This document shows positions 476 through 47,037 of a stretch of DNA of 51,675 nt, in pieces. The translations under genes were made by a program, and so were the position numbers. Each line of letters starts with the position of its first letter. The stretch's first letter is position 1. The notes below the pieces were generated by a model. That model was not told the DNA's origin, made no database searches, and saw only the letters and a program-made list of their open reading frames with translations. This DNA comes from a virus: positions 1 to 51,675 of IMG/VR virus record IMGVR_UViG_3300025010_000081; one strand, 5' to 3'.

Positions 476-3448
476 ATGTTTGGTATAAATTCATCTCAAA
501 GTCTTATGAAAAAAATTAATATATTTAAAGACTACTTAGATTTAGATAGTACCCAAATAGACTTAGAATTATTAAATTTAAAAATGCAACTAGAAGAAGC
601 TAGTATTCTAAACTTTATTAATAAAACAGGTATCGGATTCTATGATTTATTTGATACTACAAATAATATAGATATTCCAAACACTACGGCAACTGTAGAT
701 ACTGTAAATAAGAAAATTACGTTTACTGGATCTAAAGTTCTTAAAATGCTTCCACAAACATTTGATTCATTTAGTAATATAAATCTTAATCTATATACAT
801 CAACCTCATATGCAACTAGTAAAAATGAAGTAAATAATTCATCAACAGTAATAGCTGAGATTACAGATAAGATATTAAATATTGGAGATGATTTATTTAT
901 AAATAATACATTAAATAGGATAATTGGACGAGAAAATAATATGGTTACAATAGATAAAACGATAAAAAGTTTACAGTCATATAACGCTATAATAGATAAA
1001 ACAACTCCAGTTAATGCTGCAATCGTATCTGGAGATACATCTTTCAATAATGGAGATAAAATTGTAATGGATACTAATGGTAATATATATGTAGTATATT
1101 TTTATAATTCTCAAGTTTATTGTAGAAAATCATCTGATGATGGAACTACATGGACTGATTTAGGATTTCCGCTAATAAGCGGATATGCTCAATTTAGTCC
1201 ATCAATAGCTATAGATTCATTAAATAATTTACATGTAGTATGGCAAGGACTGGATAGTTCCAATACTACATATACTCAAATCAAATATAGTAAATTTAAT
1301 GGAACTACATGGAGTAGTTGGATAAATATACAAACTATAAGTGCATATAATCAATATGTGCCATCTATAGCTATAGATTCATTAGATAATATACATGTAA
1401 TATGGTATGGAACTGACAGTTCCAATACTACATATTATCAAATTAAATATAGTAAATTTAATGGAACTATATGGAGTAGTTGGATAACTATACAACTTAT
1501 AGTTGGGTATAATCAATATTACCCATCAATAGCTATAGATTCACTAGATAATCTACATATAATATGGTATGGAAGAGATATTTCTAATCCGACATACTAT
1601 CAAATTAAATATAGTAAATTTAATGGAACTACATGGAGTAGTTGGATAGATATACAATCTATAAGTGGATATTATCAATATTATCCATCAATAGCTATAG
1701 ATTCATTAAATAATATACATGTAGTGTGGTATGGAACAGATAGTTCTAATACTACATATACTCAAATTAAATATAGTAAATTTAATGGAACTATATGGAG
1801 TAGTTGGATAGATATACAATCTATAAGCGGATATCATCAGTTATATCCATCAATAACTATAGATTCATTAAATAATATACATGTAGTATGGCGGGGAGTT
1901 GATAGTTCTACTCCATCATATTATCAAATTAAATATAGTAAATTTAATGGAACTATATGGAGTAGTTGGATAAATTATACAGCTGGAACAACGAATCATC
2001 AGGTATATCCTTCTGCTTGTAGAAATTATAAGAATTTTACAGAACCAATTATTATATGGCAAGATACACAAACTTCAACAGTTAAATTTAGAGGAAAATA
2101 CACAGTAACAAAAACTACAAATATATATTCATCAGTTGCAAATGTTTCAGGAGATACTTCTTTAAATAATGGAGATAAAATAGTGATAGATACTAATGGT
2201 AATATATATGCAGTATATTTTTATGATACTCAAGTTTATTGTAGAAAATCATCAGATGATGGAACTACATGGAGTGATTTAGGACTTCCTATTGTAAGTG
2301 GATATAATCAATATAGACCATCAATAGCTATAGATTCATTAGATAATTTACATGTAGTATGGTATGGAAATGATGCTTCTATTCCATCATATAATCAAAT
2401 TAAATATAGTAAATTTAATGGAACTACATGGAGTAGTTGGATAAATATACAACCTATAAGTGGATATAGTCAATATTATCCATCAATAGATATAGATTCA
2501 TTAGATAATTTACATGTAGTATGGTATGGGTCCGATGCTTCTAATCCATCATATCAGCAAATTAAGTATAGTAAATTTAATGGAACTACATGGAGTAGTT
2601 TTGTGAATATGCAAGTTATAAGTAGTTATCATCAAAATTATCCATCGATAGTTATCGATTCGTTAAATAATTTACATGTGGTATGGCAGGGGTATGATAG
2701 TTCTAATGCAAATATTCAAATTAAATATAGTAAATTTAATGGAACTACATGGAGTAGTTGGATAAATATACAAACTATAACTGGATATCATCAAAATAAT
2801 CCATCAATAGCTATGGATTCATTAGATAATTTACATGTAGTATGGCATGGGGTGGATAGTTCTAATCCATCATATATTCAAATTAAATATAGTAAATTTA
2901 ATGGAACTACATGGAGTAGTTGGATAAATATACAAACTATAAGTGGATATAATCAATTTTATCCAACAATATCTATAGATTTATTAGATAATCTACATAT
3001 AGTATGGTATGGAATGGACAGTTCTAATACTACATACTATCAAATTAAATATAGTAAATTTAATGGAACTACATGGAGTAGTTGGGTTAATTATACAACT
3101 GGAACAACAGCTCATCAAGTTTATGCATCTTCTTGTAAAAACTATAAGAAATTTACAGAACCAATTATCATATGGCAAGATAATCAAACTTCGACAGTTC
3201 AATTTAGAGGAAAATTCGAAGCCTCTGTTGGATATATCATAACACTAACAAACCCTGTTACATTAATATCATCTCAAAAAGTTCCAATAGCTGATTTTAA
3301 CGCTAAGCAAGATGGGACTCAATTAGTATTAAAAGCTATAGAATCAGATAAATTTATATTCTCATTAGCTAGTATCGATACAATAGTCGATATCACAATT
3401 GAAGGTATTGATACTATTTTAAATGATATTGCATATAGCGTAAGTTAA
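476..3448 (+). CDS. Giant double beta-propeller virion protein, paralogue 1 (990 aa)
   Basis: A conserved N-terminal region of about 185 residues, likely for attachment or trimerisation, is followed by two similar beta-propellers and a beta-rich C-terminal domain of about 80 residues. Each propeller opens with a classic Asp-box (SSDDGTTW) and continues with five blades built on IDSLxNxHVVW and IKYSKFNGTTWSSW, ending in a distinct closing blade (NYKNFTEPIIIWQ). Asp-box propellers occur in sialidases and in phage receptor-binding proteins, but no sialidase catalytic arginine/tyrosine set is recognisable. AAGGAGG precedes the ATG. The next two genes are paralogues in the same order. Carbohydrate or cell-surface binding on the virion is inferred. 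Confidence 0.85.
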   Translation: MFGINSSQSLMKKINIFKDYLDLDSTQIDLELLNLKMQLEEASILNFINKTGIGFYDLFDTTNNIDIPNTTATVDTVNKKITFTGSKVLKMLPQTFDSFSNINLNLYTSTSYATSKNEVNNSSTVIAEITDKILNIGDDLFINNTLNRIIGRENNMVTIDKTIKSLQSYNAIIDKTTPVNAAIVSGDTSFNNGDKIVMDTNGNIYVVYFYNSQVYCRKSSDDGTTWTDLGFPLISGYAQFSPSIAIDSLNNLHVVWQGLDSSNTTYTQIKYSKFNGTTWSSWINIQTISAYNQYVPSIAIDSLDNIHVIWYGTDSSNTTYYQIKYSKFNGTIWSSWITIQLIVGYNQYYPSIAIDSLDNLHIIWYGRDISNPTYYQIKYSKFNGTTWSSWIDIQSISGYYQYYPSIAIDSLNNIHVVWYGTDSSNTTYTQIKYSKFNGTIWSSWIDIQSISGYHQLYPSITIDSLNNIHVVWRGVDSSTPSYYQIKYSKFNGTIWSSWINYTAGTTNHQVYPSACRNYKNFTEPIIIWQDTQTSTVKFRGKYTVTKTTNIYSSVANVSGDTSLNNGDKIVIDTNGNIYAVYFYDTQVYCRKSSDDGTTWSDLGLPIVSGYNQYRPSIAIDSLDNLHVVWYGNDASIPSYNQIKYSKFNGTTWSSWINIQPISGYSQYYPSIDIDSLDNLHVVWYGSDASNPSYQQIKYSKFNGTTWSSFVNMQVISSYHQNYPSIVIDSLNNLHVVWQGYDSSNANIQIKYSKFNGTTWSSWINIQTITGYHQNNPSIAMDSLDNLHVVWHGVDSSNPSYIQIKYSKFNGTTWSSWINIQTISGYNQFYPTISIDLLDNLHIVWYGMDSSNTTYYQIKYSKFNGTTWSSWVNYTTGTTAHQVYASSCKNYKKFTEPIIIWQDNQTSTVQFRGKFEASVGYIITLTNPVTLISSQKVPIADFNAKQDGTQLVLKAIESDKFIFSLASIDTIVDITIEGIDTILNDIAYSVS

Positions 3449-3502
3449 TAGTGATATATATTAAATATAGTGCATTTTAGTTAGAAGGAGGCTATATAAA
3501 TA

Positions 3503-6466
3503 ATGTTTGGTATAAATTCATCTCAAAGTATTGCGAAAAAGCTTAATACATTAAAGGAGAATTCGACATCCTATAATTCTAAAATAAAATTAGAATTACT
3601 AGACTTAAAAATGCAACTAGAAGAAGCTAATATTCTAAACTTTATTAATAAAACAGGTATCGGTTTCTACGATCTATTTGATACTACAGATAATATAGAT
3701 ATACCAAATACTACGGCAACTGTAGATACTGTAAATAAGAAAGTTACATTTATTGGTTCCAAAGTCCTTAAAATGCTTCCACAATCATTCGATTCATTTA
3801 GTAATATAAATCTTAATCTTTATACAGAACCTAAATATGCAACTAGTAAAAATGAAGTAAATAATTCAGTTACTGTTATAGCTGAAGTCGCAGATAAGAT
3901 ATTAAATATTGGTGATGATTTATTTATAAATAATACATTAAATAGAATAGTTAATAGAGAAAATAGTATGAGTACAATAGATAAAACGATAAAAAGTTTA
4001 CAGTCATATAACGCTATAATAGATAAAACAACTCCAGTTGATGCCGCCTCGGTGTCTGGCGATACATCTTTTAATAGTGGTGATAAAATAGTAATAGATA
4101 CTAATGGTAATATATATACAGTATATACTTATAATAATCAAGTTTATTGTAGAAAATCATCCGATGATGGAACAACATGGGCTGATTTAGGATTGCCGAT
4201 TATAAGTGGATATGGGCAATATTATCCATCAATAGTTATCGATTCGTTAAATAATTTACATGTAGTATGGCAGGGGATAGATATTTCTAATACAGCCTAC
4301 CAAATTAAGTATAGTAAATTTAATGGAACTACATGGAGTAGTTGGGTTAATATACAAACTATAAGCGGATACCATCAGCAAAATCCGTCTATAGCTATAG
4401 ATTCATTAAATAATTTACATGTAGTATGGCAGGGACTAGATAGTTCCAACGCAACCAACCAAATTAAGTATAGTAAATTTAATGGAACCACGTGGAGTAG
4501 TTGGATAACTATACAAACTATAACTAGTTATAATCAATCTGGGTCATCCATAGCTATAGATTCATTAAATAATTTACATGTTGTATGGCACGGATCTGAT
4601 AGTTCTAATACCACAGCTTATCAAATTAAATATAGTAAATTTAATGGAACTACATGGAGTAGTTGGATAAATATACAACCTATAAGTGGATACAATCAAT
4701 ATAGTCCATCAATAGCTATAGATTCATTAAATAATATACATGTAGTATGGTATGGAATAGATAGTTCTAATACATATCAGCAAATCAAATATAGTAAATT
4801 TAATGGAACTACATGGAGTAGTTGGATAAATATACAACTTATAAGTAGTTATCATCAATATGTGCCATCAATAACTATAGATTCATTAGATAATTTACAT
4901 GTAGTATGGCATGGTTATGACATTTCTAATACATCATATAATCAAATTAAATATAGCAAATTTAATGGAACTACATGGAGTAGTTGGATTAATTATACAA
5001 CAGGAACCGCAAATCATCAATATAATCCATCCACTTGTAAAAATTATAAGAATTTTACTGAGCCTATTATTATATGGCAGGCTCAACAGACATTATCTAT
5101 TAAATTTAGAGGAAAATACACAGTAACAAAAACTACAAATATATATTCCTCAGTTGCAAATGTTTCAGGAAATCCATCTTTAAATAATGGAGATAAAATT
5201 GTAATGGATACTAATGGTAATATATATGCAGTATATTTTTATGATACTCAAGTTTATTGTAAAAAATCATCCGATGATGGAACAACGTGGGCCGATTTAG
5301 GATTTCCTATTATAAGTGGATATAATCAATATAGACCATCAATAGCTATCGATTCACTAAATAATCTACATGTAATATGGTATGGAACTGATGTTTCTAA
5401 TCCATTATATTATCAAATTAAATATAGTAAATTTAATGGAACTACATGGAGTAGTTGGATAAATATACAACTTATAAGTAGTTATGGTCAATATTATCCA
5501 TCAATAGCTATAGATTCATTAAATAATATACATGTAGTATGGTATGGAGTAGATAGTTCTAATCCATCATATACGCAAATTAAGTATAGTAAATTTAATG
5601 GAACTACATGGAGTAGTTGGATAAATATACAATCTATAAGTAGCTATAATCAATATAGCCCATCAATAGCTATAGATTCATTAGATAATTTACATGTAGT
5701 ATGGCATGGGCATGATAGTTCTAATGCAACTTATCTACAAATTAAATATAGTAAATTTAATGGAACCACATGGAGTAGTTGGATAAATATACAAACTATA
5801 ACTGGATATTCTCAATCAAGCCCATCACTAGATATAGATTCATTAAATAATATACATGTAATATGGTATGGAAATGATGCTTCTTATGTAAATCCTCAAA
5901 TTAAATATAGTAAATTTAATGGAACTACATGGAGTAGTTGGATAAATATACAAACTATAAGCGGCTATGATCAATATTATCCATCAATAGCTATAGATTC
6001 ATTAGATAATTTACATGTAGTATGGCATGGAACGGATAGTTCTAATATATCATATTATCAAATTAAATATAGCAAATTTAATGGAACTACATGGAGTAGT
6101 TGGGTTAATTATACAACAGGAACAACCAATTATCAATATTATCCTTCAGTTTGTAGAAATTATAAGAATTTTACAGAACCAGTTATTATATGGCAAGATG
6201 TTCAAACATCGACAGTCCAATTTAGGGGGAAATTCGAAGCTGCTATTGGATATGTCATAACACTAACAAATCCTGTTACATTAATATCATCTCAAAAAGT
6301 TCCAATAGCTGATTTTAAAGCTAAACAAGATGAAACTCAATTAATATTAAAATCTATAGATACTGATAAATTTATATTCTCATTAGCTAATATCGATACC
6401 GTAGTCGACATCACGATTGAATGTGTTGATAATATTTTAAATGATATTGCATATAGTGTAAGTTAA
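3503..6466 (+). CDS. Giant double beta-propeller virion protein, paralogue 2 (987 aa)
   Basis: The architecture matches the gene before it: an N-terminal region starting MFGINSSQS, two Asp-box propellers each with one SSDDGTTW blade plus five IKYSKFNGTTW blades, and a beta-rich C-terminal tail. The N- and C-terminal regions are the most conserved between paralogues. Differences concentrate in the short loops between the blade motifs, the pattern expected when loops form a binding face. The 54-base leader (ending TTAGTTAGAAGGAGG) is itself similar to the leader of paralogue 3, so the unit of duplication included the intergenic region. Confidence 0.85.
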   Translation: MFGINSSQSIAKKLNTLKENSTSYNSKIKLELLDLKMQLEEANILNFINKTGIGFYDLFDTTDNIDIPNTTATVDTVNKKVTFIGSKVLKMLPQSFDSFSNINLNLYTEPKYATSKNEVNNSVTVIAEVADKILNIGDDLFINNTLNRIVNRENSMSTIDKTIKSLQSYNAIIDKTTPVDAASVSGDTSFNSGDKIVIDTNGNIYTVYTYNNQVYCRKSSDDGTTWADLGLPIISGYGQYYPSIVIDSLNNLHVVWQGIDISNTAYQIKYSKFNGTTWSSWVNIQTISGYHQQNPSIAIDSLNNLHVVWQGLDSSNATNQIKYSKFNGTTWSSWITIQTITSYNQSGSSIAIDSLNNLHVVWHGSDSSNTTAYQIKYSKFNGTTWSSWINIQPISGYNQYSPSIAIDSLNNIHVVWYGIDSSNTYQQIKYSKFNGTTWSSWINIQLISSYHQYVPSITIDSLDNLHVVWHGYDISNTSYNQIKYSKFNGTTWSSWINYTTGTANHQYNPSTCKNYKNFTEPIIIWQAQQTLSIKFRGKYTVTKTTNIYSSVANVSGNPSLNNGDKIVMDTNGNIYAVYFYDTQVYCKKSSDDGTTWADLGFPIISGYNQYRPSIAIDSLNNLHVIWYGTDVSNPLYYQIKYSKFNGTTWSSWINIQLISSYGQYYPSIAIDSLNNIHVVWYGVDSSNPSYTQIKYSKFNGTTWSSWINIQSISSYNQYSPSIAIDSLDNLHVVWHGHDSSNATYLQIKYSKFNGTTWSSWINIQTITGYSQSSPSLDIDSLNNIHVIWYGNDASYVNPQIKYSKFNGTTWSSWINIQTISGYDQYYPSIAIDSLDNLHVVWHGTDSSNISYYQIKYSKFNGTTWSSWVNYTTGTTNYQYYPSVCRNYKNFTEPVIIWQDVQTSTVQFRGKFEAAIGYVITLTNPVTLISSQKVPIADFKAKQDETQLILKSIDTDKFIFSLANIDTVVDITIECVDNILNDIAYSVS

Positions 6467-6520
6467 TAATGATCTATATTAAATATATTGTATTTAGTTA
6501 GAAGGAGGTTACAATTAATA

Positions 6521-9490
6521 ATGTTTGGTATAAATTTATCTCAAAATCTTACAAAAAAGTTTAATACATTTAAGGAAAGTGCCATATCTGATAATTCTAA
6601 AATAAAATTAGAATTACTAAACTTAAAACTTCAACTAGAAGAAGCTAGTATTCTAAACTTTATTAATAAAACAGGTATCGGTTTCTACGATCTATTTGAT
6701 ACTACAGATAATATAGATATTCTTAATACTACGGCAGTTGTAGATACTGTAAATAAGAAAGTTACGTTTACTGGATCTAAAGTTCTTAAAATGGCACCTC
6801 AAACATTTGATTCATTTACCAATATTAATCTTAATCTATATACAACTCCTAAATATGCAACTAGTAAAAATGAAGTAAATAATTCAGCTATTGTTATATC
6901 TGAAGTTGCAGATAAGATATTAAATATTGGTGATGATTTATTTATAAATAATACATTAAATAGAATAGTTGATAGAGAAAATAATATCACTATAATAGAT
7001 AAAACGATAAAAAGTTTACAGCCATACGAGGCATTAATAGATAAAACAACACCAATTACAATAGTAGCGTCACAAGGCGATACCTCTCTTAATAATGGTG
7101 ATAAAATAGTAATAGATACTAATGGCAATATATATACAGTATATTCTTATAGTAATCAAGTTTATTGTAGAAAATCATCCGATGATGGAACAACATGGAC
7201 TGATTTAGGATTGCCTATTGTAAGTGGTTATAATCAAGCAGTTCCATCAATAGCTATAGATTCATTAAATAATTTACATGTAGTATGGCAGGGGACAGAT
7301 AGTTCCTATACTGCAAATACTCAAATTAAATATAGTAAATTTAATGGAACTACATGGAGTAGTTGGATAAATATACAACCTATAAGTAGTTATAATCAAG
7401 TTACGTCATCAATAGCTATAGATTCATTAAATAATTTACATGTGGTATGGAATGGTTACGACAGTTCCAACATATCATACTATCAAATTAAATATAGTAA
7501 ATTTAATGGAACTACATGGAGTAGTTGGATAAATATACAAGCTATAAGTGGATATCATCAACTTTCCCCATCTATAACTATAGATTCATTAAATAATTTA
7601 TATGTAGTATGGTATGGAACAGATAGTACTAATTCATCATATAATCAAATTAAATATAGTAAATTTAATGGAACTACCTGGAGTAGTTGGATAAATATGC
7701 AAACTATAAGTAGTTATAGTCAATATTATCCATCAATAGCTATAGATTCATTAAATAATTTACATGTAGTATGGCGAGGTTTTGATAGTTCTAATGCCGC
7801 AAATTATCAAATTAAATATAGTAAATTTAATGGATCTACATGGAGTAGTTGGATAAATATACAAACTGTAAGTAGTTATCATCAAAATAGTCCATCCATA
7901 ACTATAGATTCATTAGATAATTTACATGTAGTATGGTATGGAGTATCTAGTTCCAGTTCCTATTATCAAATTAAATATAGTAAATTTAATGGAACCACAT
8001 GGAGTAGTTTGGTAAACTATACTAGCGCCACGCTTGATCAATTATATGTATCTGCTTGTAAAAACTATAAGAATTTCACAGAACCAATTATCATATGGCA
8101 AGATACGCAAACTACAACAGTTAAATTTCGAGGAAAATTCACAGCAGTAAAAAATACAAATATGTATTCCTCAGTTGTAGATGTTTCAGGAGATACATCT
8201 ATAACTAGTGGAGATAAAATAGTAATAGATACTAATGGAACTATATATACAATATATCTTTATACTAATCAAGTCTATTGTAAAAAATCATCAGATAATG
8301 GAACAACATGGACTGATTTAGGATTTCCTCTAATAAGTGGATATGCTCAATATAATCCATCAATAGTTATAGACTCATTAAATAATTTACATGTTGTATG
8401 GTATGGTCGCGATAGTTCTAATCCGACATATTATCAAATTAAATATAGTAAATATAATGGAACTACATGGAGTAGTTGGATAAATATACAAACTATAAGT
8501 AGTTATAATCAAGAATTCCAATCAATAGCTATAGATTCATTAAATAATTTATATGTAGTCTGGCAGGGAGCAGATAGTTCCTATACTGCAAATAGCCAAA
8601 TTAAATATAGTAAATTTAATGGAACTACATGGAGTAGTTGGATAAATATACAACCTATAAGTAGTTATAATCAATATGTGCCATCAATAACTATAGATTC
8701 ATTAAATAATATACATGTAATATGGTCTGGTTATGATAGTTCTAATACTACATATTATCAAATTAAATATAGTAAATTTAATGGAACATCATGGAGTACT
8801 GTTGTAAATATACAAACTATAAGTGGATATCATCAGTATGCTCCATTAATAACTATAGATTCGTTAAATAACTTACATGTAGTGTGGCAAGGAAGAGATA
8901 GTTCTAATCCGACATATTATCAAATTAAATATAGTAAATTTAATGGAACTACCTGGAGTAGTTGGATAAATATACAAACTATAAGTGGATATGGCCAACT
9001 GTTTCCATCATTAGCTATAGATTTATTAGATAATTTACATGTAGTCTGGCACGGGAACGATTCTTCCAATACATCATACTATCAAATTAAATATAGTAAA
9101 TTTAATGGAACTACATGGAGTAGTTGGGTTAATTATACAACTGGAACAACAGATCATCAAGTTTATGCATCTTCTTGTAAAAACTATAAGAATTTTACAG
9201 AACCGATTATCATATGGCAAGATGTTCAAACATCGACAGTTCAATTCAGAGGAAAATTCGAAGCCTCTGTTGGATATGTCATAACCTTAACTAATCCTGT
9301 GACATTAATAGCATCTCAAAAAGTTCCAATAGCTGATTTTAAAGCTAAACAAGATGAAACTCAATTAATATTAAAATCTATAGATACTGATAAATTTATA
9401 TTTTCAGTATCTGGTAGCTATACGGTAGCAACTCTAACTATTGAAGGTGTTGATAATGTTTTAAATGATATTGCATATACTGTAAGTTAA
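6521..9490 (+). CDS. Giant double beta-propeller virion protein, paralogue 3 (989 aa)
   Basis: This is the third tandem paralogue. The ATG at 6521 is preferred over an upstream in-frame TTG because AGAAGGAGG lies just before it and the resulting N-terminus (MFGINLSQ) matches the other two. It has two propellers with ten IKYSK(F/Y)NG blades and two SSD(D/N)GTTW blades. One blade reads KYNGTTW and another NGTSWSTVV, the most divergent in the set. The C-terminal domain differs from its paralogues only near the end (SGSYTVATLTIEG). Surface binding is inferred as for the paralogues. Confidence 0.85.
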   Translation: MFGINLSQNLTKKFNTFKESAISDNSKIKLELLNLKLQLEEASILNFINKTGIGFYDLFDTTDNIDILNTTAVVDTVNKKVTFTGSKVLKMAPQTFDSFTNINLNLYTTPKYATSKNEVNNSAIVISEVADKILNIGDDLFINNTLNRIVDRENNITIIDKTIKSLQPYEALIDKTTPITIVASQGDTSLNNGDKIVIDTNGNIYTVYSYSNQVYCRKSSDDGTTWTDLGLPIVSGYNQAVPSIAIDSLNNLHVVWQGTDSSYTANTQIKYSKFNGTTWSSWINIQPISSYNQVTSSIAIDSLNNLHVVWNGYDSSNISYYQIKYSKFNGTTWSSWINIQAISGYHQLSPSITIDSLNNLYVVWYGTDSTNSSYNQIKYSKFNGTTWSSWINMQTISSYSQYYPSIAIDSLNNLHVVWRGFDSSNAANYQIKYSKFNGSTWSSWINIQTVSSYHQNSPSITIDSLDNLHVVWYGVSSSSSYYQIKYSKFNGTTWSSLVNYTSATLDQLYVSACKNYKNFTEPIIIWQDTQTTTVKFRGKFTAVKNTNMYSSVVDVSGDTSITSGDKIVIDTNGTIYTIYLYTNQVYCKKSSDNGTTWTDLGFPLISGYAQYNPSIVIDSLNNLHVVWYGRDSSNPTYYQIKYSKYNGTTWSSWINIQTISSYNQEFQSIAIDSLNNLYVVWQGADSSYTANSQIKYSKFNGTTWSSWINIQPISSYNQYVPSITIDSLNNIHVIWSGYDSSNTTYYQIKYSKFNGTSWSTVVNIQTISGYHQYAPLITIDSLNNLHVVWQGRDSSNPTYYQIKYSKFNGTTWSSWINIQTISGYGQLFPSLAIDLLDNLHVVWHGNDSSNTSYYQIKYSKFNGTTWSSWVNYTTGTTDHQVYASSCKNYKNFTEPIIIWQDVQTSTVQFRGKFEASVGYVITLTNPVTLIASQKVPIADFKAKQDETQLILKSIDTDKFIFSVSGSYTVATLTIEGVDNVLNDIAYTVS

Positions 9491-9505: not shown

Positions 9506-9661
9506 ATGGGAAAAGTTTACAATACTCAGATAATTGAACAATTGACTATTGAAAAAGATACTGAAATATTAATTGCTGATCTACTATTAGAAAATTCTGA
9601 ATTAAAACAACGGTTATCTGATATAGAATTAATTTTATCGGAGGTAATGACAAATGCGTGA
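9506..9661 (+). CDS. Small coiled-coil-like protein, 51 aa, XkdW-position
   Basis: The ATG at 9506 follows GGAGGTATTTAGATT, and the gene starts 15 bases after the third propeller gene. The product is helical, with a heptad-like run of Leu/Ile and acidic residues (LLLENSELKQRLSDIELI). Its stop overlaps the start of the next tiny gene. Many Firmicutes phages carry two such short genes after the tail-fibre genes (xkdW and xkdX of PBSX). Position and size suggest the same arrangement, but sequence alone does not prove homology. Confidence 0.7.
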   Translation: MGKVYNTQIIEQLTIEKDTEILIADLLLENSELKQRLSDIELILSEVMTNA

Positions 9662-9776
9662 TTACGTTATTAGGTTTCTAAAAAGAATCTATGCAGTTAA
9701 AGGTATTGAGTATATGAATACCTTATTAGAATTAGGAACCATCACACAAGATGAATATAATGCAGTCATATCATAG
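9654..9776 (+). CDS. XkdX-like small phage protein, 40 aa
   Basis: The ATG overlaps the end of the upstream gene by eight bases, so translation is probably coupled. A site CGGAGG lies 9 bases before the ATG. The C-terminal half (LLELGTITQDEYNAV) matches the shape of XkdX-family proteins, which end in a pattern like G-x-I-T-x-E-x-Y-x-x-I. XkdX proteins lie at the end of tail-fibre operons in Gram-positive phages and their role is unknown. A strong terminator follows, closing the propeller unit. Confidence 0.7.
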   Translation: MRDYVIRFLKRIYAVKGIEYMNTLLELGTITQDEYNAVIS

Positions 9777-9866: not shown

Positions 9867-9955
9867 AGTTATTATTTAATTACAGAAGAAAATACATGTT
9901 ATATATTTAGTACTACACAATAACGTAGAAATACAATAATGAAAGGGTGTTTGTT

Positions 9956-11080
9956 ATGGAAAAAGATCTTAGTTCAATTTCAGTTAATGAAAAACAAACT
10001 AATTCTTTTAAAAAGTATATGCTTGGAGATATTGGACGTATTGAAGATGTGCAAGATGAAAGAGACTTTAGTTTATTGGCTATAGTCCCACATGATACAA
10101 AATTACCAGCTAAGATATCATGGAAAGATAAAGTCCCAATGGTTCTAGATCAGGGTCCTTTTGGTATTTGTGTCGGTGCAGCCGGTACTGCAATGGAAAA
10201 TATCCAAAAAACTATTAAGGGAAACTGTCCAGCCCATGGATTTAGTCCTATTTATCTTTATACACTATGTAAGAGTTTAGATGGGGATAAAACAAATAAA
10301 AATTGGGGAACTTATTCAAGATCAGCCGCTAAAGTTCTATGCTCTGATGGCATTTTGCCTTATGTGGAACTTCCAACAACCTATCTAAAAACTAACAAAG
10401 GTAAATTACCAGTAATTACACCAGATCAAATACAACGGGCTACAAAAAATAAATGTAAATCATATGCAAGTGTTCCAATGAATATTACGGCAATAAAGAA
10501 AGCTCTTATGCGTAGTCCAATTCTTGGAAGTTTTAATGTAAATGACTCATTCTGGGACCCGGAAGTAAATGACTCATTCTGGGACCCGGAACAAAATAAA
10601 TATATTAAGAAACCAGCAGGACAGTTTTGTGGCGGACACTGTATGTGTATTATCGGTTATGATAATGATATCGAATACACATATGAAGATGGAACTCACT
10701 ATAAAGGATTTTTAGAAATTCAAAATTCATGGAGTACTGGATGGGGAAATTCCGGTTTTGCCTATATACCATATGATTTATTAAAGCTAGAGAGTAATAT
10801 TCTCATATATGCCTCTTGGAGTGTTATCGATAGTTCTACACAAGTAAAGAAACTATGGAGAATTCATAGTAGTAAGTTTACAAATAAAGAAGATGCTCAA
10901 GCTCATCAGATTCAGTTAAAAAAGAAAAAGATATCCACATGTCTAGAATATATAGATGATGAATCTGCAGGATTAGTTATATGTGTTCAAATTAGGACAT
11001 ATATAAGTGAAAAAACCTGTAAGGCATATTCTGAAACATTAACCAAAAAAGGAATACAAAATTATATTGTTTATTATTAA
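9956..11080 (+). CDS. Papain-type (C1A) cysteine protease with C-terminal SPOR-like domain
   Basis: The ATG at 9956 has GAAAGGG at good spacing and is preferred to an in-frame GTG at 9947. The C1A landmarks appear in order: the oxyanion Gln and catalytic Cys in DQGPFGICVG (about residues 63-72), the catalytic His in GGHCMCIIGYD, and the catalytic Asn in IQNSWSTGWG. There is no obvious signal peptide and the propeptide is short. The last ~70 residues (WRIHSSKFTNKEDAQ onward) resemble a SPOR-like peptidoglycan-binding fold. An in-frame 27-bp duplication repeats nine residues (VNDSFWDPE). The next gene is an amidase, so attack on wall peptides or processing of virion proteins are both possible. 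Confidence 0.85.
   Translation: MEKDLSSISVNEKQTNSFKKYMLGDIGRIEDVQDERDFSLLAIVPHDTKLPAKISWKDKVPMVLDQGPFGICVGAAGTAMENIQKTIKGNCPAHGFSPIYLYTLCKSLDGDKTNKNWGTYSRSAAKVLCSDGILPYVELPTTYLKTNKGKLPVITPDQIQRATKNKCKSYASVPMNITAIKKALMRSPILGSFNVNDSFWDPEVNDSFWDPEQNKYIKKPAGQFCGGHCMCIIGYDNDIEYTYEDGTHYKGFLEIQNSWSTGWGNSGFAYIPYDLLKLESNILIYASWSVIDSSTQVKKLWRIHSSKFTNKEDAQAHQIQLKKKKISTCLEYIDDESAGLVICVQIRTYISEKTCKAYSETLTKKGIQNYIVYY
10538..10591 (+). repeat. Exact 2 x 27 bp tandem duplication, in frame
   Basis: Two identical 27-bp copies lie head to tail inside the protease gene, duplicating nine residues just before the catalytic-His segment. Papain-type enzymes do not need such a repeat. It belongs to a series of similar duplications in this window. 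Confidence 0.95.
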
Positions 11081-11110: not shown

Positions 11111-11440
11111 ATGACAAAGATAGTTTGTCTCGATCCAGGACATGGCGGAAGAGATCCTGGAGCATTAGGTATTACTACACAAGAGAAAGCTAATAATTTG
11201 ATATTCTGCCTAAAGCTTGGAGGAGAACTTCAAAGACATGGCGTACTTGTGAAATATACAAGAACTACAGATAAAGATTTTTGCTCAGGAAGTTTTAGTG
11301 ATGTTATAGATTTAGAAAATCGTATTATAATAGCTAAATCATATAATCCAGATATATTCATAAGCTGCCATAATAATAGTTTTAATAAAAATGCAAAAGG
11401 ACTTGAGACTTTCTGCTATAAGTTTGGAGGAACTGAATAG
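11111..11440 (+). CDS. N-acetylmuramoyl-L-alanine amidase (Amidase_3), N-terminal fragment
   Basis: The product starts with the hallmark CLDPGHGGRDPGA, whose His is the first zinc ligand, and reaches SCHNNSF, whose His is another ligand, before a premature stop. A 61-bp tandem duplication (11375-11496) causes the frameshift. Removing one copy joins this fragment to the next frame and gives an intact amidase of 279 residues. The enzyme cleaves the bond between N-acetylmuramic acid and L-alanine in peptidoglycan. The site AGAAAGGATG precedes the ATG. Together with the neighbouring protease and holin-like genes it forms a probable lysis cluster. Confidence 0.85.
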   Translation: MTKIVCLDPGHGGRDPGALGITTQEKANNLIFCLKLGGELQRHGVLVKYTRTTDKDFCSGSFSDVIDLENRIIIAKSYNPDIFISCHNNSFNKNAKGLETFCYKFGGTE

Positions 11441-11496
11441 TTTTAATAAAAATGCAAAAGGACTTGAGACTTTCTGCTATAAGTTTGGAGGAACTG
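11375..11496 (+). repeat. Exact 2 x 61 bp tandem duplication breaking the amidase gene
   Basis: Copies 11375-11435 and 11436-11496 are identical. The unit length is not a multiple of three, so the reading frame is lost and a TAG appears at 11438. Collapsing one copy restores the frame. Confidence 0.95.
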
Positions 11497-12011
11497 ATCA
11501 AAAATTAGCAAATGATATCCATAGTAAATTATCAACATTACCATTTTCTAATCGTGGAGTTAAATCCGGGAATCTATATGTATTACGCAAATTCGATAAA
11601 ACATCAACAGATGCTTGTTTAATAGAATATGGCTTTATTGATTCTGAAGAAAAGTTAATTTTAGATAATATGAATAATGCCGTTATTTTAGCGGCAACTG
11701 GCATCTTAAAGAATATCGGAATAGAGTATAAAAAAGAAACTGATGAGGTGATTGATGTGTTAACTCATGCTATTGCGTATCATACAGCTAAAGATGTTTC
11801 CGTTGCACTTCTTGTAGCCGATAAGTTAGGAAATTGTGCAACATTTTGCTGCAATGCAAATCCTGTAATTCACCCTGAAGCAAAATCGGCAAAGCATCTA
11901 ATTAAAATCGGTGGTCCAAAAGTAGAAGATCATCCAAATGTGACTAATTGTTGTGGCTATGATGCTCCTGAAACAGCTATCTTAGCTGCTAAATACGCTC
12001 AGACATTGTAA
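11391..12011 (+). CDS. N-acetylmuramoyl-L-alanine amidase, C-terminal part with likely wall-binding domain
   Basis: This frame is open from the duplication onward and continues the amidase: QKLANDIHSKL, then the conserved end of the catalytic domain CLIEYGFIDS, whose Glu is the expected catalytic residue. After a short linker the last ~85 residues (VALLVADKLGN... LIKIGGPKVED... ETAILAAKYA) resemble a cell-wall-binding repeat of the CWB2 kind, though this assignment is tentative. The apparent ATG at 11391 lies inside the duplicated segment, so the true product is the fusion with the preceding fragment. A terminator follows. Confidence 0.8.
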   Translation: MQKDLRLSAISLEELNSFNKNAKGLETFCYKFGGTDQKLANDIHSKLSTLPFSNRGVKSGNLYVLRKFDKTSTDACLIEYGFIDSEEKLILDNMNNAVILAATGILKNIGIEYKKETDEVIDVLTHAIAYHTAKDVSVALLVADKLGNCATFCCNANPVIHPEAKSAKHLIKIGGPKVEDHPNVTNCCGYDAPETAILAAKYAQTL

Positions 12012-14062: not shown

Positions 14063-14578
14063 TTATATTTTAGTTGCTAACTCATTATAGTAGTCAATTA
14101 GTGATTGTTGAGAATTATAATCTCCTAAATCTTTATTATAGATACAATCATATTGCATAGTATAGTTATTATAAGTATCTCCTAACATCATTAGAATACT
14201 CTTATACAAATCCGATTTTAATTTACTTGATTCTATTTCAAATAATACTTCCAATCTCCTATCAAGATTTCTGGTCATTAAATCAGAAGATGTGATAAAT
14301 GCTCTCATCTGATCTTGTGTGCCAAATATTAACACCCTACTATGTTCAAGAAATCTTCCTATGATAGATGTAACATTTATATTTTCACTATATCCAATAA
14401 CTTTTGGTATTACGGAACATGATCCTCTACAGATTATATCAATTTTGACTCCGGCATTTGATGCGTCATATAATTTCTTTGTTAATTCGATATCTGAAAT
14501 ATTATTTACTTTTATGCATATATATCCATTGTTTCTTTTACTAATTTCTTCATCTATTTCTTTTACTAATTTCTTCAT
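14063..14578 (-). CDS. ppk1: Polyphosphate kinase 1, C-terminal fragment
   Basis: This frame carries the second phospholipase-D-like half of PPK1, including FLEHSRVLIFG, which holds the second conserved histidine, and the closing segment DLMTRNLDRRLEVLFEI typical of PPK1. It is separated from the central frame only by a 25-bp tandem duplication (14532-14581). Without one copy the reading runs from ...DEEISKRN directly into NGYICIKVNN. The apparent ATG at 14578 is therefore probably not a real start. See the central fragment for function. Confidence 0.85.
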   Translation of the reverse strand: MKKLVKEIDEEISKRNNGYICIKVNNISDIELTKKLYDASNAGVKIDIICRGSCSVIPKVIGYSENINVTSIIGRFLEHSRVLIFGTQDQMRAFITSSDLMTRNLDRRLEVLFEIESSKLKSDLYKSILMMLGDTYNNYTMQYDCIYNKDLGDYNSQQSLIDYYNELATKI

Positions 14579-14581
14579 CTA
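14532..14581 (-). repeat. Exact 2 x 25 bp tandem duplication breaking ppk1
   Basis: Copies 14532-14556 and 14557-14581 are identical. The 25-bp length shifts the frame and creates a TGA. Collapsing it restores PPK1. Confidence 0.95.
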
Positions 14582-16154
14582 TAAGATCATATATATGCTT
14601 CCTATTATATATAGGAGATATCTTAACCTTATCTAGATTAATAGAATTAGATATGAACCCACCAGTTAGCATATTGAATATATTATTTATATCAGAACAA
14701 ATTTTTTTATTAGATGTAAAATATCCAAAATCTGTATATGTTCTGGAATTTTTCTCGGAATAGTTTCCAGTTCCGATATGGACAAATTGCTCAGATTTTC
14801 CATCTTTCAATTTAAAGATATGAATCAATTTGGCATGTGTTTTAATATGCTCATAACCATAGACTACAATAGCACCAGCTCGTTTTAATTTCTCAGCCCA
14901 TTCAATATTAACTTCTTCATCAAATCTGGCTTTTAACTCGATTACAACAACAACATTCTTACCGGCCTCAGCAGCCTTAAGAAGATATTTCAAGATATTG
15001 GAATCAGTTCCTGATCTATACAATATTTGCTTAATCGATATAACGTGTGGATCTACACAGGCTTCTTGGATTAATCTCAATACTGAGTCATTGAAACTTT
15101 CATATGGATGATGCACTAAGATATCTCGTTTAGCTATTGTGGACATAAGTGTTTTATCTGGAATATGCAACTTAGTTGGTTTAAATTCTGGATATTTTAA
15201 GTCAACTTTATTTATCTTATTGTATAGTATCATAATGTCTGATAATTTTAATCTCATAGATGTATTAAATATAAATTTCTTTGTAATATCTAAAGACTCC
15301 TTAATCATATTGATAATTTTCTTTCTAGGAAATCCCCAGATATCAACTCTGACCGGTTCGTTGAACAACATCCTACTCCGAACATGTTTTACCATCGATT
15401 CTACATATTTATTATCATCAAGTTCCTCTGGATTACCTTCTCTCAATATTCGAAATGCTGTTATATCCGAATATGTCATTCCAGGATATAATTGATCAAG
15501 ATTGGAAATTATGATATCTTCAATAAAATACCACTTACTAGACTCTTTATTTCCAAATTTGATAAGTCTCTCTAATTGAGGTGTTACTTCAATTAGGCCT
15601 ATTCTTTCTGAACCATTTTTAACGATTAGAGTTATATATATTGAAAATGGTTTAAGATGTGGGATAGGTCTTGTTTTATCTAATATTAATGGTGTTAATG
15701 ATGGTTGTATATTATTCTTAAAATAGTTAAACATTTCTTTAGTACATCCTAAATTATTAAGAATAGTTCTAGATGAATTTTCATCTACGTCATCATCAGA
15801 ATAACTATTCTTTTGTATGTGTTGAATATCTGAGTCAGATATATCAATGTCATAATTTCTAAGATTAAGTCGAAGTTCGCTATAACTAGAATCTATTCTT
15901 AATAGCATATCTCGGCATTCTTTTAATATTTTAGATACATTCTGATTGGAATCTTTATTCTCATTTAATCTAGATGATACTCTAATACTAAAGAATTCAT
16001 CCAAATTTGAGTTTGCGATAGATAAGAATTTAACTCGTTCCAGTATTGGAATATTTCCAGAGTCTACGAGATCCAATACTCTATTATTAAAATTTAACCA
16101 CGATAACTCTCTATCCATAAATGGAAACTCGGTGCTTGGAGGTACAGATATCAA
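14550..16154 (-). CDS. ppk1: Polyphosphate kinase 1, central part
   Basis: PPK1 reversibly moves the terminal phosphate of ATP onto polyphosphate. The product shows the N-terminal signature [15 protein letters not shown], the head domain with LDEFFSIRV, then HHPYESF, the phospholipase-D-like segment with IKTHAKL, whose His is the phosphorylated catalytic residue, and VHIGTGNYSEKNSRTYTDFG. With both duplications collapsed, the gene spans 14063-16401 and encodes about 706 residues, the usual PPK1 length. It is preceded by an AT-rich promoter motif and ended by a terminator, so it appears to be its own unit. PPK1 is unusual in a phage. Confidence 0.93.
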   Translation of the reverse strand: MISVPPSTEFPFMDRELSWLNFNNRVLDLVDSGNIPILERVKFLSIANSNLDEFFSIRVSSRLNENKDSNQNVSKILKECRDMLLRIDSSYSELRLNLRNYDIDISDSDIQHIQKNSYSDDDVDENSSRTILNNLGCTKEMFNYFKNNIQPSLTPLILDKTRPIPHLKPFSIYITLIVKNGSERIGLIEVTPQLERLIKFGNKESSKWYFIEDIIISNLDQLYPGMTYSDITAFRILREGNPEELDDNKYVESMVKHVRSRMLFNEPVRVDIWGFPRKKIINMIKESLDITKKFIFNTSMRLKLSDIMILYNKINKVDLKYPEFKPTKLHIPDKTLMSTIAKRDILVHHPYESFNDSVLRLIQEACVDPHVISIKQILYRSGTDSNILKYLLKAAEAGKNVVVVIELKARFDEEVNIEWAEKLKRAGAIVVYGYEHIKTHAKLIHIFKLKDGKSEQFVHIGTGNYSEKNSRTYTDFGYFTSNKKICSDINNIFNMLTGGFISNSINLDKVKISPIYNRKHIYDLIDEEISKRNR

Positions 16155-16397
16155 TCTATCTATATCAGATATCTGATCTTCCGACTCGGAAAAATTAATA
16201 GGGATTTGCGATAGATAAGAATTTAACTCGCTCTAGTATTGGAATATTTCCTGAGTCTACGAGATCCAATACTCTATTATTAAAATTTAACCACGATAAC
16301 TCTCTATCCATAAATGGAAACTCAGTGCTTGGAGGTACAGATATCAATCTATCTATATCAGATATCTGATCTTCCGACTCGGAAAAATTAATAGGGA
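16012..16397 (-). repeat. 2 x 193 bp near-identical tandem duplication in ppk1
   Basis: Copies 16012-16204 and 16205-16397 differ at four positions, and all four are silent in the PPK1 frame (Leu, Glu, Ser and Thr codons). The length breaks the reading frame. The silent-only divergence suggests two strain alleles rather than a decaying duplicate. Confidence 0.93.
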
Positions 16398-16401
16398 TCA
16401 T
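16195..16401 (-). CDS. ppk1: Polyphosphate kinase 1, N-terminal fragment
   Basis: This frame holds the true start of PPK1. The ATG at 16401 has AAAGGAAATGATAA upstream and lies 40 bases after an AT-rich promoter motif. The first 22 residues are acidic and phage-specific, and the signature [13 protein letters not shown] follows. The frame ends early at the junction of the 193-bp duplication. The remainder of the enzyme continues in the next frame downstream. Confidence 0.8.
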
Positions 16402-23948: not shown

Positions 23949-25331
23949 ATGGCGGAGTTATATTCGCAATATCGTAAAGTTGGAGACTCCGTATGGTTAG
24001 AAACTAATAAATCCACATTATCGTCTATAAATGGCGAGCAAGAGTTTTCATTCAATATATCCAATTTAATATATGGTACAGTATATGAATACAGAGCAGC
24101 TGTTGATTGGGGAAGTGGGCCATCATATGGATCAATAGCGCAGTTTACAACACCTACTCCAGTATTTGTTACTGGAATATCACAATCTACCAACTCAACC
24201 ACATTATCATTGACTTCTATTTCAAGACCAACTGGGATATCACAATCTACTAACTCAACCACATTAGCATTAACATCTATTTCTAGACCTACTGGAATAT
24301 CCCAATCAACTAATTCAACCACATTAGCATTAACATCTATTTCTAGACCTACTGGAATATCCCAATCAACTAATTCAACCACATTAGCATTAACATCTAT
24401 TTCCATCCCTACTGGTGTATCCCAATCAACTAATTCAACCACATTAGCATTAACATCTATTTCCATCCCTACTGGTATGTCAGATTCCAGCAGCTCAACT
24501 ATATTAGAATTGATTTCCATTCTCGATTCGCTTAGTTCACTATCTATAACTGATAGTATATCTGATATTATTTTAAATACACAAATATCATTATCGATGG
24601 AGTCACAATCTGAGGCCAGCTCAACATATGATATGTTTTTTGTCCCAAAATTAGATATCTTAACAGAGACTTTTACAGATACGATTAGTTATATAATAAG
24701 TGAGTCATATCCAATATGCGAATCGAATGTTGAGACACGTTCTAGTATTGAATTTAACACATTAATCGACTTAAGCTTAACATGTCCATCCTACACCTTT
24801 TTAAATTTACAATTTGAGGCTGGTGATGAAATAGTGTCGAAATTGTATTATAATGGAATAAACTTCGAAGATGAATATTTTGCAGATGCTGCAAGATCAA
24901 TTTTAAATAATGATATAGATAGTATTAATGGTAGATTAAAATTAACATCAATGTCGTCTTTTATATATCAGATAAATTTAAGTAATATTTCCACACTTTC
25001 ATCAATAATCGATTTAATTATCGGAGAATCAGATACCATAACAGATACGATTGACTTATCTGTAGAAAGTGAAAAATTTCCTTCTTGCTCATATGAAGGT
25101 GGAGATTTTGCATTTTTAGATTATACTGGAAAAGAATTACCATTCGCGATAATATCCGTATCCGGAATATCGCCAAATAAAATTGCCAGAGTATATATAG
25201 ATATAGAGAATTCAAATACCAAATATATTGTAATTAGAGGTTTTGGTGGATTAAATTCTCAAAATAGGAGTAGAGGTGAGGGTTTATATGATTGGACGAA
25301 TCCTCAAAGACCTACGGTTTCTATCTTATAA
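23949..25331 (+). CDS. Fibronectin-like repeat adhesin with DUF2341-like C-terminus, 460 aa
   Basis: Residues ~1-72 look like a fibronectin type III domain (YGTVYEYRAAVDWG). Then come five exact-length 20-residue repeats (PTGISQSTNSTTLALTSI) and a degenerate sixth, low in charge and rich in Ser/Thr, like a stalk. The middle is Ser/Thr/Ile-rich with more degenerate repeats, and the last ~80 residues repeat the DUF2341-like end seen in the 20-22 kb genes (GGDFAFLDYTGKELPF). The protein fits a rod-like virion adhesin. AAAAGTGGTGATG precedes the start. Confidence 0.75.
   Translation: MAELYSQYRKVGDSVWLETNKSTLSSINGEQEFSFNISNLIYGTVYEYRAAVDWGSGPSYGSIAQFTTPTPVFVTGISQSTNSTTLSLTSISRPTGISQSTNSTTLALTSISRPTGISQSTNSTTLALTSISRPTGISQSTNSTTLALTSISIPTGVSQSTNSTTLALTSISIPTGMSDSSSSTILELISILDSLSSLSITDSISDIILNTQISLSMESQSEASSTYDMFFVPKLDILTETFTDTISYIISESYPICESNVETRSSIEFNTLIDLSLTCPSYTFLNLQFEAGDEIVSKLYYNGINFEDEYFADAARSILNNDIDSINGRLKLTSMSSFIYQINLSNISTLSSIIDLIIGESDTITDTIDLSVESEKFPSCSYEGGDFAFLDYTGKELPFAIISVSGISPNKIARVYIDIENSNTKYIVIRGFGGLNSQNRSRGEGLYDWTNPQRPTVSIL
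24171..24530 (+). repeat. Six 60-bp in-frame tandem repeats
   Basis: Five copies of a 60-bp unit (24171-24470) are highly similar, with copies 3-5 nearly identical. A sixth copy is degenerate. They encode a 20-residue Ser/Thr-rich stalk unit. The constant unit length distinguishes them from the out-of-frame duplications elsewhere. Confidence 0.9.
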
Positions 25332-25360: not shown

Positions 25361-28300
25361 ATGAAGTTTAGACGAGGAAAGAATATTGATATCAATAAAG
25401 TAATACCAGATAAGGAGACTATTATTTATAATGAGGAAACTGGACGATTGCTTGTTGGTGATGGAGTAACAATAGGCGGTGTTTCAATAACGTCTGATGT
25501 TGCAGATGATGTATATAATAAAGATGAGGTAAATACTTTAATTTCAAATAAGGCTAATACAGTTCATACACATACAGAATCCCAAATATCTAATCTTGAT
25601 AAATATACAAAATCAGAAGTAACTGCATATTTAGAAACTAAAGAAATTCTCACTAATAAAGTTGCAGAATTTCAAACTATTCCAGATAATACTCATTATC
25701 CTACAGAAAAATTAGTTAAAGATCAATTAGATACTAAATCTCCTACAGCACATACTCATGTAGAAGCTGATATTACAGATTTAGATAAATATACTCAAGA
25801 CGAAGTTGATACATTATTACTTGAAAAATCAGATACTACTCATAATCATCCACAATCAGATATAGCCAATTTAGATACAGCATTAGCTGCAAAAGAGAAT
25901 AATTCTAATAAGGTAGCTGAATTTCAAGCTATTCCAGATTATATACATTATCCATCTGAGAGATTAGTTAAGGATCAATTAGACACTAAAGAGAATCTTA
26001 CTAATAAGGTTACAGCATTTAGTTCTCCTACTGATACTCAATATCCTACTGCCAAATTAGTTAAAGATCAATTAGATACTAAATCTGTAACTGGTCATAC
26101 ACATGTAGAAGCTAATATTACTGACTTAGATAAATATACACAAGCCGAGACGAATACTTTACTGGATACCAAAGAGAATCTTACTAATAAAGTTACAGAA
26201 TTTCAAACTACCACAGATAATACTCACTATCCTACTGAAAAATTAGTTAAGGATCAATTAGATACTAAATCTAATACCGGACATATTCATACTGAAACTG
26301 ATATAACGAATTTAACTTCCGATTTGGCATTAAAAGCTCCACTAGATTCTCCAGCTTTAACTGGAACACCAACTGCACCGACAGCCGCTGTCGGTACAAA
26401 TAGTACTCAAATAGCGACAACAGCATTCACAAAAGCCCTTGTGGATGCTAGTGTTTCAGGATTATTAGATTACCGAGGAGGATTTGTCCCAGAAACAACT
26501 AGTGGAGCTACCGGATTTCCAACAACTGAAGGTTCTGGTACTTCTGGAGCTATTATGAAAGGAGATGCATTTATTGCATCTGCAAATGGATTTATAACAA
26601 CTGAGGTTATTAATTCTGGAGATATGATTATTGCAAGTATAGATTCTCCAGGTCAAATATTGGCTAATTGGAATATTATACAGAGAAATATTACATATAC
26701 ACCAGAAGATCAAGCAAATAAAGCTACAGTATTTACTACAGTTAATGATACATTATATCCAACAGTAAAAGCTGTTAAGGATCAATTAGATACTAAATCT
26801 GTAACTGGCCATACTCACGTGGAAGCTAATATTACAGATTTAGATAAATATACTCAGGCCGCAACTAATACTCTATTAGCAACAAAAGAAAATCTTACTA
26901 ATAAAGTTACATCATTTAGTTCGCCAACAGATACTCAATATCCATCTGCTAAATTAGTTAAAGATCAATTAGATACTAAATCAGTGACAAGTCATACTCA
27001 CGTGGAAGCTAATATTACAGATTTAGATAAATATACTCAGGCCGCAACTAATACTTTATTAGCTACTAAAGAAAATCTTACTAATAAAGTTACGGCATTT
27101 AGTTCTCCTACCGATACTCAATATCCTACAGCTAAATTAGTTAGTGATCAATTAGCCACTAAGTCAGCTACAGGACATACTCATGTAGAGGCTAATATTA
27201 CAAATCTAGATAAATACACTCAAGCAGCTACTGATACACTATTATCAGCTAAAGAGAATACTATTAATAAAGTAACAATATTTAGTTCTCCTACAGATAC
27301 TCAATACCCTACGGCTAAATTAGTTAAAGATCAATTAGATACTAAATCAGTAACTGGTCATACTCATGTAGAAGCTAACATTACAGATTTAGATAAATAT
27401 ACACAAGCAGCTACTAATACTTTATTAGCAGCTAAAGAAAACCTAAGCAATAGAGTCTCTACATTTCAAACTACTCCAGATAATACACATTATCCTACAG
27501 AAAAATTAGTTAAAGATCAATTAGATACTAAATCCGCAACTGGTCATACACATTCAGAATCAGATGTTACGAATTTAATATCAGATCTATCGTTGAAAGC
27601 GCCATTAGCTTCTCCAAGTTTAACTGGTATTCCAACCGCTCCTACAGCAACTATTGGTACTAATACAACTCAATTAGCGACAACGGCATTTGTTAAAGCG
27701 ACTATAGATACAAATATTGCAGGATTATTAGATTATAGAGGCGGATTTACTCCAGCTGCATCTAGTGGAGCAGCTGGATTTCCAACAACTGGTGGTTCTG
27801 GAACTGCTGGTGCTATATTAAAAGGAGATGCATTTATTGCATCCGCAAATGGATTTGTAGCAACAGAAAGTATTCAATCTGGGGATATGATTATATCGAC
27901 TATAGATTCTCCAGGGCAAACAATAACTAATTGGGATATGATACAAAGAAATATCACATATACGCCAGAAAACAACTCTAATAAAGTTACGGCATTTAGT
28001 TCACCGACAGATATACAATACCCATCTGCTAAATTAGTTAAAGATCAATTAGATACTAAAACTAATACTGGCCATACTCATGTAGAGGCTAATATTACAG
28101 ATTTAGATAAATACACCCAAGCAGCTACTAATACTTTATTAGCTACTAAAGAAAATCTTATTAATAAAGTAACAATATTTAGTTCTCCTACAGATACTCA
28201 ATATCCTACGGCTAAATTAGTTAGTGATCAATTAAATACAAAATCATCAACTGGTCATACTCATGTAGAAGCTAACATTACAGATTTAGATAAATATACA

Positions 28301-31772: not shown

Positions 31773-31910
31773 ATGATCAGATATGTATGTAAAGATTGTC
31801 AAACTAACTACTATACATCAATAGACAGCAATAATCTTAAATGTGAAAGCAATAATCTTAAATGTGAAAAATGCGATTCTGACTTAATTAATGAAGGTCC
31901 AGCAAACTAG
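31773..31910 (+). CDS. Mini zinc-ribbon protein, 45 aa
   Basis: An AGGAGG site lies nine bases before ATG. The protein starts MIRYVCKDCQTNYY, which is the first half of a zinc ribbon (C-x2-C), and has KCEKCD as the second half. An in-frame 21-bp duplication repeats SNNLKCE, inserting an extra Cys between the two knuckles. Without it the fold would be a normal ~38-residue ribbon. A terminator follows immediately. Confidence 0.75.
   Translation: MIRYVCKDCQTNYYTSIDSNNLKCESNNLKCEKCDSDLINEGPAN
31827..31868 (+). repeat. Exact 2 x 21 bp tandem duplication, in frame
   Basis: Two identical 21-bp copies repeat seven residues inside the zinc-ribbon gene, adding a cysteine. Confidence 0.95.
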
Positions 31911-36460: not shown

Positions 36461-36480
36461 TATATATAATATATATCTAG
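36461..36480 (-). promoter_or_regulatory. AT-rich putative promoter motif (minus strand)
   Basis: On the minus strand TATATATTATATATATG lies 31 bases before the ADP-ribosyltransferase-like start. Confidence 0.45.
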
Positions 36481-36511: not shown

Positions 36512-36539
36512 TATAAAAAATAGAAATGGGGTGTTTTAA

Positions 36540-46962: not shown

Positions 46963-46990
46963 TTCAAACACTCTCCTTATATATAATCTA

Positions 46991-47012: not shown

Positions 47013-47037
47013 TTCTCACCTATATCGAATAATAATA

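Follow-up and report, generated by a model that had tools for sequence, protein, structure and literature searches.

Among phage receptor-binding and baseplate-periphery proteins, Gp45 of Staphylococcus phage phi11, a receptor-binding protein, is a five-bladed propeller, and the C-terminal part of phiKZ gp131 is a seven-bladed one (PMC4901313). Other phage receptor-binding proteins carry DUF6273 domains, C-type lectins that are targets of diversity-generating retroelements (DGRs; PMC10743442). Highly repetitive propellers are known in all kingdoms, including viruses, and propellers with near-identical blades arise repeatedly (PMC9218822). In Podospora, the WD40 sensors HET-D and HET-E have two seven-bladed propellers with repeats over 80% identical. 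Concerted evolution of these repeats, both inside single genes and across genes, is reported, and the face used for recognition carries a small number of hypervariable codons (PMC12222747, PMC4986451). A family of phage BNR-like propellers (PHROG 21129; Bacillus phage G gp424, gp425, and gp427; loci L004 and L021-L037) belongs to the same seven-blade family as the proteins described here, as judged by tblastn, PHROG match, and fold, and its members, like those proteins, often have two propellers each.

We analyzed IMG/VR virus record IMGVR_UViG_3300025010_000081 over its whole length of 51,675 bases, referred to here as the window, which contains three consecutive propeller genes. The propellers of phi11 Gp45 and phiKZ gp131 are likewise parts of receptor-binding or baseplate-periphery proteins, but each occurs once per chain, repeated hypervariable blades have not been described in them, and the five blades of Gp45 are unlike the seven of each window propeller. 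HET-D and HET-E are intracellular immune sensors of the NLR type in a fungus, built of WD40 instead of Asp-box/BNR blades. Their concerted evolution and diversifying selection rest on allele data, whereas for the window propellers these processes are read from one contig, and the likeness is one of pattern only, without homology. DGR tail fiber modules with DUF6273 targets (compare the tentaclins, PMC10743442) have an N-terminal joining domain and a C-terminal domain homologous to those of the window proteins. Their C-type lectin lies in a separate ORF after Avd and the reverse transcriptase (RT), whereas the window has a double propeller within one ORF and no adenine-specific signature.

Within the BNR-like family, most relatives have a best 50-aa self-identity of 0.26 to 0.52, versus 0.88 in the interior blades of the window, and the higher self-identity in L023, L030, and gp424 stems from copies of whole propellers or of other domains. 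Comparably homogeneous blades were found in none of the propeller relatives examined. Relatives with single or doubled propellers are present in many other phage contigs, and in Bacillus phage G the propeller genes stand in a row; the second gene downstream of them is annotated as XkdX family. A reading of this DNA made from the sequence alone had considered tandem double propellers unusual; the doubles in several other phage proteins and the gene row of phage G make them less unusual than supposed. Double and tandem propellers are thus already known in phages, and the feature not found elsewhere is the internally homogenized, hypervariable double propeller. A limited literature search likewise returned no phage receptor-binding protein that combines homogeneous blades, hypervariability on one face, and a double seven-bladed layout.

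Gene layout and genome context

Among the proteins encoded in the window are RNA polymerase beta-type subunits, for which the closest relatives in databases come from Staphylococcus and Bacillus jumbo phages, e.g., AR9 and PBS1. Because of this relationship, the window probably represents part of an AR9/PBS1-like jumbo phage genome, of which a large share is probably missing. The three propeller genes are intact ORFs (476-3448, 3503-6466, and 6521-9490) with good ribosome-binding sites and zero stops or frame breaks. The main features are as follows.

80-457, + strand: 125-aa protein immediately 5' of propeller gene 1, no family match
476-3448, + strand: propeller protein 1, 990 aa
554-928, + strand: N-domain of protein 1, homologous to the C-terminal part of fiber proteins just upstream of DGR cassettes
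1022-2110, + strand: propeller A of protein 1, interior hypervariable blades at 1193-2002
2141-3226, + strand: propeller B of protein 1, interior hypervariable blades at 2312-3118
3221-3445, + strand: C-domain of protein 1, homologous to the C terminus of DGR target (DUF6273) proteins
3503-6466, + strand: propeller protein 2, 987 aa, with N-domain at 3581-3955, propeller A at 4049-5128, propeller B at 5159-6244, and C-domain at 6239-6463
6521-9490, + strand: propeller protein 3, 989 aa, with N-domain at 6599-6973, propeller A at 7067-8149, propeller B at 8180-9265, and C-domain at 9263-9487
9506-9776, + strand: two small ORFs (51 and 40 aa) immediately 3' of propeller gene 3, no family match
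25361-31471, + strand: tail fiber, 2036 aa, with 16 phage-tail-repeat (PTR) stretches

The start of protein 3 was placed at the ATG at 6521, as a longer TTG form from 6488 adds residues absent from the paralogs. The two paralogs are 81% and 76% identical to protein 1 (76-81% overall). At about 990 aa each, the proteins had been overstated as "giant"; the fiber in the same window has 2036 aa. In each, an N-domain spanning about residues 27-151 is followed by two propellers, and the last 75 residues form a C-domain. Every propeller begins with a blade that has a canonical SxDxGxTW Asp-box, continues with five blades of 54 residues in which the turn is a degenerate FNGTTW, and ends with a closing blade, which amounts to two canonical Asp-boxes and ten FNGTTW-type motifs per protein. 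The canonical SxDxGxTW is confined to blade 1 of each propeller, and the Pfam BNR models scored below their cutoff. The blade period is 162 nt, and the interior blades number 30 (54 aa each), with near-identical scaffold DNA.

An AlphaFold2 model of propeller A (379 residues, 15-row alignment) had seven blades, with a pLDDT of 86.9 and a pTM of 0.88. It includes one additional strand at the N terminus, by which the ring could be closed, and its four-stranded blades are predicted to form a ring, the top Foldseek matches also being propellers. The full-length model was weaker (pLDDT 61, pTM 0.40), with poorly modeled N- and C-domains. Propeller B is 73% identical in sequence to propeller A, and its fold is otherwise taken from this weaker model. 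Two propellers per protein, each with six Asp-box-type blades and a closing blade, had been proposed from the sequence, and both the motif layout and the predicted structure of propeller A agree with that description.

The propeller genes are found in a tail and host-lysis gene region: Amidase_3 endolysin and holin ORFs lie downstream, the PTR fiber is encoded in the same window, and the relative in L004 is part of a virion gene cluster. The 125-aa protein 5' of gene 1 is possibly a tail accessory protein, and in IMG/VR locus L004, too, the propeller gene has a small ORF before it. The downstream 40-aa ORF had been considered XkdX-like from inspection by eye and from the gene order of phage G; Pfam and NCBIfam gave no confirmation, and the assignment was dropped. 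Between the propeller genes and the endolysin is a papain-family (C1) cysteine protease gene (9947-11080, +) encoding a weak SPOR-like tail and holding a 27-nt in-frame tandem duplication. The Amidase_3 endolysin gene (11111-12011, +) is broken into two ORFs, with a 61-nt exact tandem duplication at the break. A polyphosphate kinase (PPK1) homolog (14063-16154, -) consists of two overlapping ORFs that jointly carry the PPK domains, the split site being a 25-nt exact tandem duplication, and a 193-nt unit occurs in two copies at 97% identity (16012-16398) between this ORF and the next gene. The 2036-aa PTR tail fiber (25361-31471) has next to no match in known phages, and a 301-aa pentapeptide-repeat protein (46114-47019, -) is encoded between the two RNA polymerase subunit genes.

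Hypervariable loops and proposed exchange among blades

Codons 29-42 show almost no DNA variation across the 30 interior blades, and codons 1, 2, 18, 20, 25-28, 48, 51, and 53 encode 3 to 12 residues each. On the model, the variable codons cover the last part of strand B, the BC hairpin, and the first part of strand C, as well as the DA connection. Following the usual propeller convention, we take the BC hairpin and DA loop to form one face of the propeller and the AB and CD turns to form the opposite face. Mean entropy was 1.32 bits in BC and DA positions versus 0.19 bits in AB and CD positions, and none of the 54 circular shifts ranked above the observed register; there is almost no variation in the AB and CD turns. 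No two of the 30 BC loops have the same amino acid sequence, and 28 distinct DA loops occur among the 30 blades. DNA identity among the blades is about 81%, and that of the core-blade scaffold is 93%. These values bear out the observation, made from the sequence alone, that the paralogs differ mainly in loops, and exact matches of up to 78 nt bear out the near identity of blade DNA within and across genes. HET-D/E-type repeats show the same pattern, with identities of about 80% or higher and hypervariable codons located on one face.

We compared the three paralogs position by position to obtain pN and pS. The loops had a pN of 0.265 and a pS of 0.431, compared with 0.05 and 0.158 for the scaffold and 0.103 and 0.239 for the N-domain. 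In the hypervariable codons, pN/pS was 0.88, not above 1; the ratio stays below 1 in the loops owing to an accompanying rise in silent diversity. Codon pairs with identical residues had 0.26 silent differences per pair in loops, 0.09 in scaffold, and 0.12 in the N-domain, and silent variants at near-invariant residues made up 24% in loops versus 5% in scaffold (Fisher P = 4e-9, with cells that are not independent). For example, three codons are used for the glycine between two hypervariable codons, and a single one for the CD-turn glycine in 30/30 blades. Raised diversity extends to silent sites next to the hypervariable codons, so the pattern is not accounted for by selection on those codons alone. 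Either linked old variation combined with scaffold homogenization or local mutagenesis would give raised silent diversity near the loops.

Blade identity carried no trace of position or gene. Blades at the same position in different genes were 84.5% identical, versus 84.2% for other pairs (permutation P = 0.21), and identity was 84.4% within genes versus 84.2% between genes (P = 0.25). Positional orthology of blades between paralogs and independent amplification inside each gene were rejected for lack of a positional and a gene signal, respectively. Distances were uncorrelated between the two scaffold halves and likewise between BC and DA loops (Mantel r about 0). Of 15 comparisons made, that of the BC loop with codons 1-2 gave a Mantel r of 0.33 (P = 0.0025), which may be covariation across the face. 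Blade A1 of gene 3 shares a 78-nt exact match with blade B2 of the same gene, and B1 of gene 1 shares a 73-nt exact match with A3 of gene 2, so exact matches between nonequivalent blades are as long as those between the true paralogous N-domains. A PHI-like recombination test was not significant (P = 0.08 to 0.15 for the scaffold and 0.6 to 0.8 for all sites). The proposal that such repeats favor recombination agrees with the loss of positional and gene signal but gained no support from this test. As far as the sequences go, the identity pattern fits free exchange or continual reamplification of blades and suggests recombination, short of proving it; a star-like burst of blade amplification just before the triplication could also erase the positional signal. 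A degenerate scaffold pattern scan of viral contigs returned no close relatives for loop comparison, and known phages gave only 27-33% matches to the propeller proteins.

Structural spacers or platforms without a binding role, with loops that vary through weak constraint after a recent burst of blades, are an unlikely account of these data. The repeated origin of near-identical-blade propellers in all lineages (PMC9218822), the local pN/pS below 1, and the nonsignificant PHI-like test are compatible with it. However, relaxed constraint should affect both faces, yet the AB and CD turns are nearly invariant; loop pN exceeds the silent divergence of the neighboring N-domain (0.265 versus 0.239); and silent diversity is raised around the loops only.

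Fold relatives, flanking domains, and DGR modules

The best PDB folds for propeller A in Foldseek were Photorhabdus PLL lectins, followed by glycoside hydrolases, polysaccharide/ulvan lyases, and sialidases. The Photorhabdus PLL/PHL lectins, the closest solved folds, are glycan-binding propellers with about 15% identity to the window propeller. The closest viral predicted structures were Bacillus phage G gp424, gp427, and gp425 (TM about 0.8). The glycoside hydrolases, ulvan lyases, and sialidases among the top folds, together with a profile search that touches sialidase Asp-box segments, could indicate carbohydrate-active enzymes (sialidase-like proteins or polysaccharide lyase/hydrolase depolymerases) and not pure binders. 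We consider this improbable, given that the sialidase profile matches are short and mostly Asp-box stretches, that the face positions vary freely between blades, and that there is no RIP motif and arginines are very few (7-10 per 990 aa). A GH33 sialidase identity was rejected on the absence of RIP/KIP from all three proteins and the scarcity of arginine.

A profile search built on the three propeller proteins found fiber proteins in other phages. The N-domain matches the C-terminal 115-125 residues of these proteins (35-45% identity). Downstream of the fiber genes come Avd, a reverse transcriptase, and a DUF6273 protein gene, except in L014-L016 and L020, where the DUF6273 gene directly follows the fiber gene. 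The C-domain matches the C terminus of the DUF6273 protein (E about 1e-6 to 1e-12). Compared with the fiber and target of L007, L010, L018, L020, and L038, the N-domain is 37-45% identical and the C-domain 25-38% identical. The propeller proteins thus carry the flanking fiber module of known DGR loci. The DGR assignment of the loci with matching fibers is solid: L007, L010, L018, and L038 have complete cassettes (Avd, RT, template repeat, and DUF6273 target) with TR/VR mismatches at template adenines in 12/12, 9/10, 13/14, and 15/16 cases, and in the near-identical phages L010 and L011 most differences fall in the variable region. In the window, both flanking domains are encoded by one ORF, with two propellers between them. 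Since these domains match those that bracket DGR cassettes, the propellers appear to occupy the slot held elsewhere by a hypermutated lectin. The N-domain may also be distantly homologous to the N termini of other double-propeller proteins (L021, L029, and L032); this is a tentative assignment from an hhalign match over 39 columns (E = 4e-5, probability 69%). The earlier suggestion of a host-range module is in keeping with the DGR-fiber flanking domains, the virion gene cluster around the L004 relative, and the similarity to lectin propellers, all of which point to a receptor-binding setting.

The same flanking domains raise the idea that a DGR elsewhere in the phage genome mutates the blades directly. 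Loop columns with an A majority vary most (0.31 versus 0.13-0.21), and the raised silent sites near loops are as expected of targeted mutagenesis. However, scaffold adenines are conserved both between and beside the loops (minority fraction 0.045), and variation extends to loop columns with a T, C, or G majority, so the adenine signature is absent. No blade-like template repeat was found elsewhere in the window, and no RT was matched among the window proteins scanned. Direct DGR mutagenesis of the blades was rejected on the absence of both signature and template in the window, and we regard it as very improbable.

Contig integrity and the proposed role

Ten exact tandem duplications (unit of 18-61 nt, about two copies) occur in the 51.7 kb of the window, versus three in 504 kb of comparison phage loci.

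10538-10591, 11375-11497, 14532-14582, 19490-19536, 22842-22921: exact tandem duplications 1 to 5
24255-24403, 31827-31869, 36476-36512, 40318-40380, 40757-40838: exact tandem duplications 6 to 10

They reflect either an assembly artifact or a duplication-prone genome, and because two of them coincide with split genes (endolysin and polyphosphate kinase), the contig may contain assembly faults. None of the ten lies in a propeller gene, and blade counts are constant. These duplications and the exact matches of up to 78 nt between blade cores might suggest that reads were misjoined at near-identical cores, making blade order and part of the apparent shuffling artifactual, but this has very little probability: in 6/6 propellers the first and closing blades are correct and enclose exactly five interior blades, an outcome that random joining would not yield, the blade region contains no repeated 99-mer and only four repeated 77-mers, and the hypervariability itself is independent of blade order.

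The explanation we favor, and consider reasonably probable, is that the three genes encode paralogous tail receptor-binding (fiber tip) proteins of an AR9/PBS1-like jumbo phage, diversified by blade exchange and selection. Each protein would sit on the virion and display two seven-bladed propellers between an N-terminal fiber-joining domain and a small C-terminal domain. Blade scaffolds would be kept near identical across blades and genes, and the BC hairpin and DA loop of each interior blade, all predicted to lie on one face per ring, would remain hypervariable. With a separate loop set on each, the six rings would then present a wide choice of surfaces to ligands on the host surface, probably glycans. 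Further surfaces would most likely arise by blade exchange or reamplification within and between the three genes, with selection subsequently acting on the exposed loops. The moderate homology of the flanking domains (25-45% identity in sequence), the nonsignificant PHI-like test, the pN/pS of 0.88 in hypervariable codons, and the possible assembly faults of the contig count against this explanation. A more far-reaching possibility, which we put forward tentatively, is that the locus would be an RT-free alternative to a DGR, in which three tandem double-propeller genes at the lectin fiber position exchange and reamplify near-identical blades to yield combinatorial binding faces, convergent with HET-D/E.

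Known phage routes to receptor-binding diversity are DGRs, gene swaps, and point mutation. Thirty blades with a common scaffold and 30 different loop tips at the position of a DGR lectin would amount to repeat-based binding diversity. Such a system would be a viral parallel to the fungal propeller sensors for self/non-self recognition, and it would give engineers of lectin-like binders a natural scaffold whose permissive positions are already mapped.
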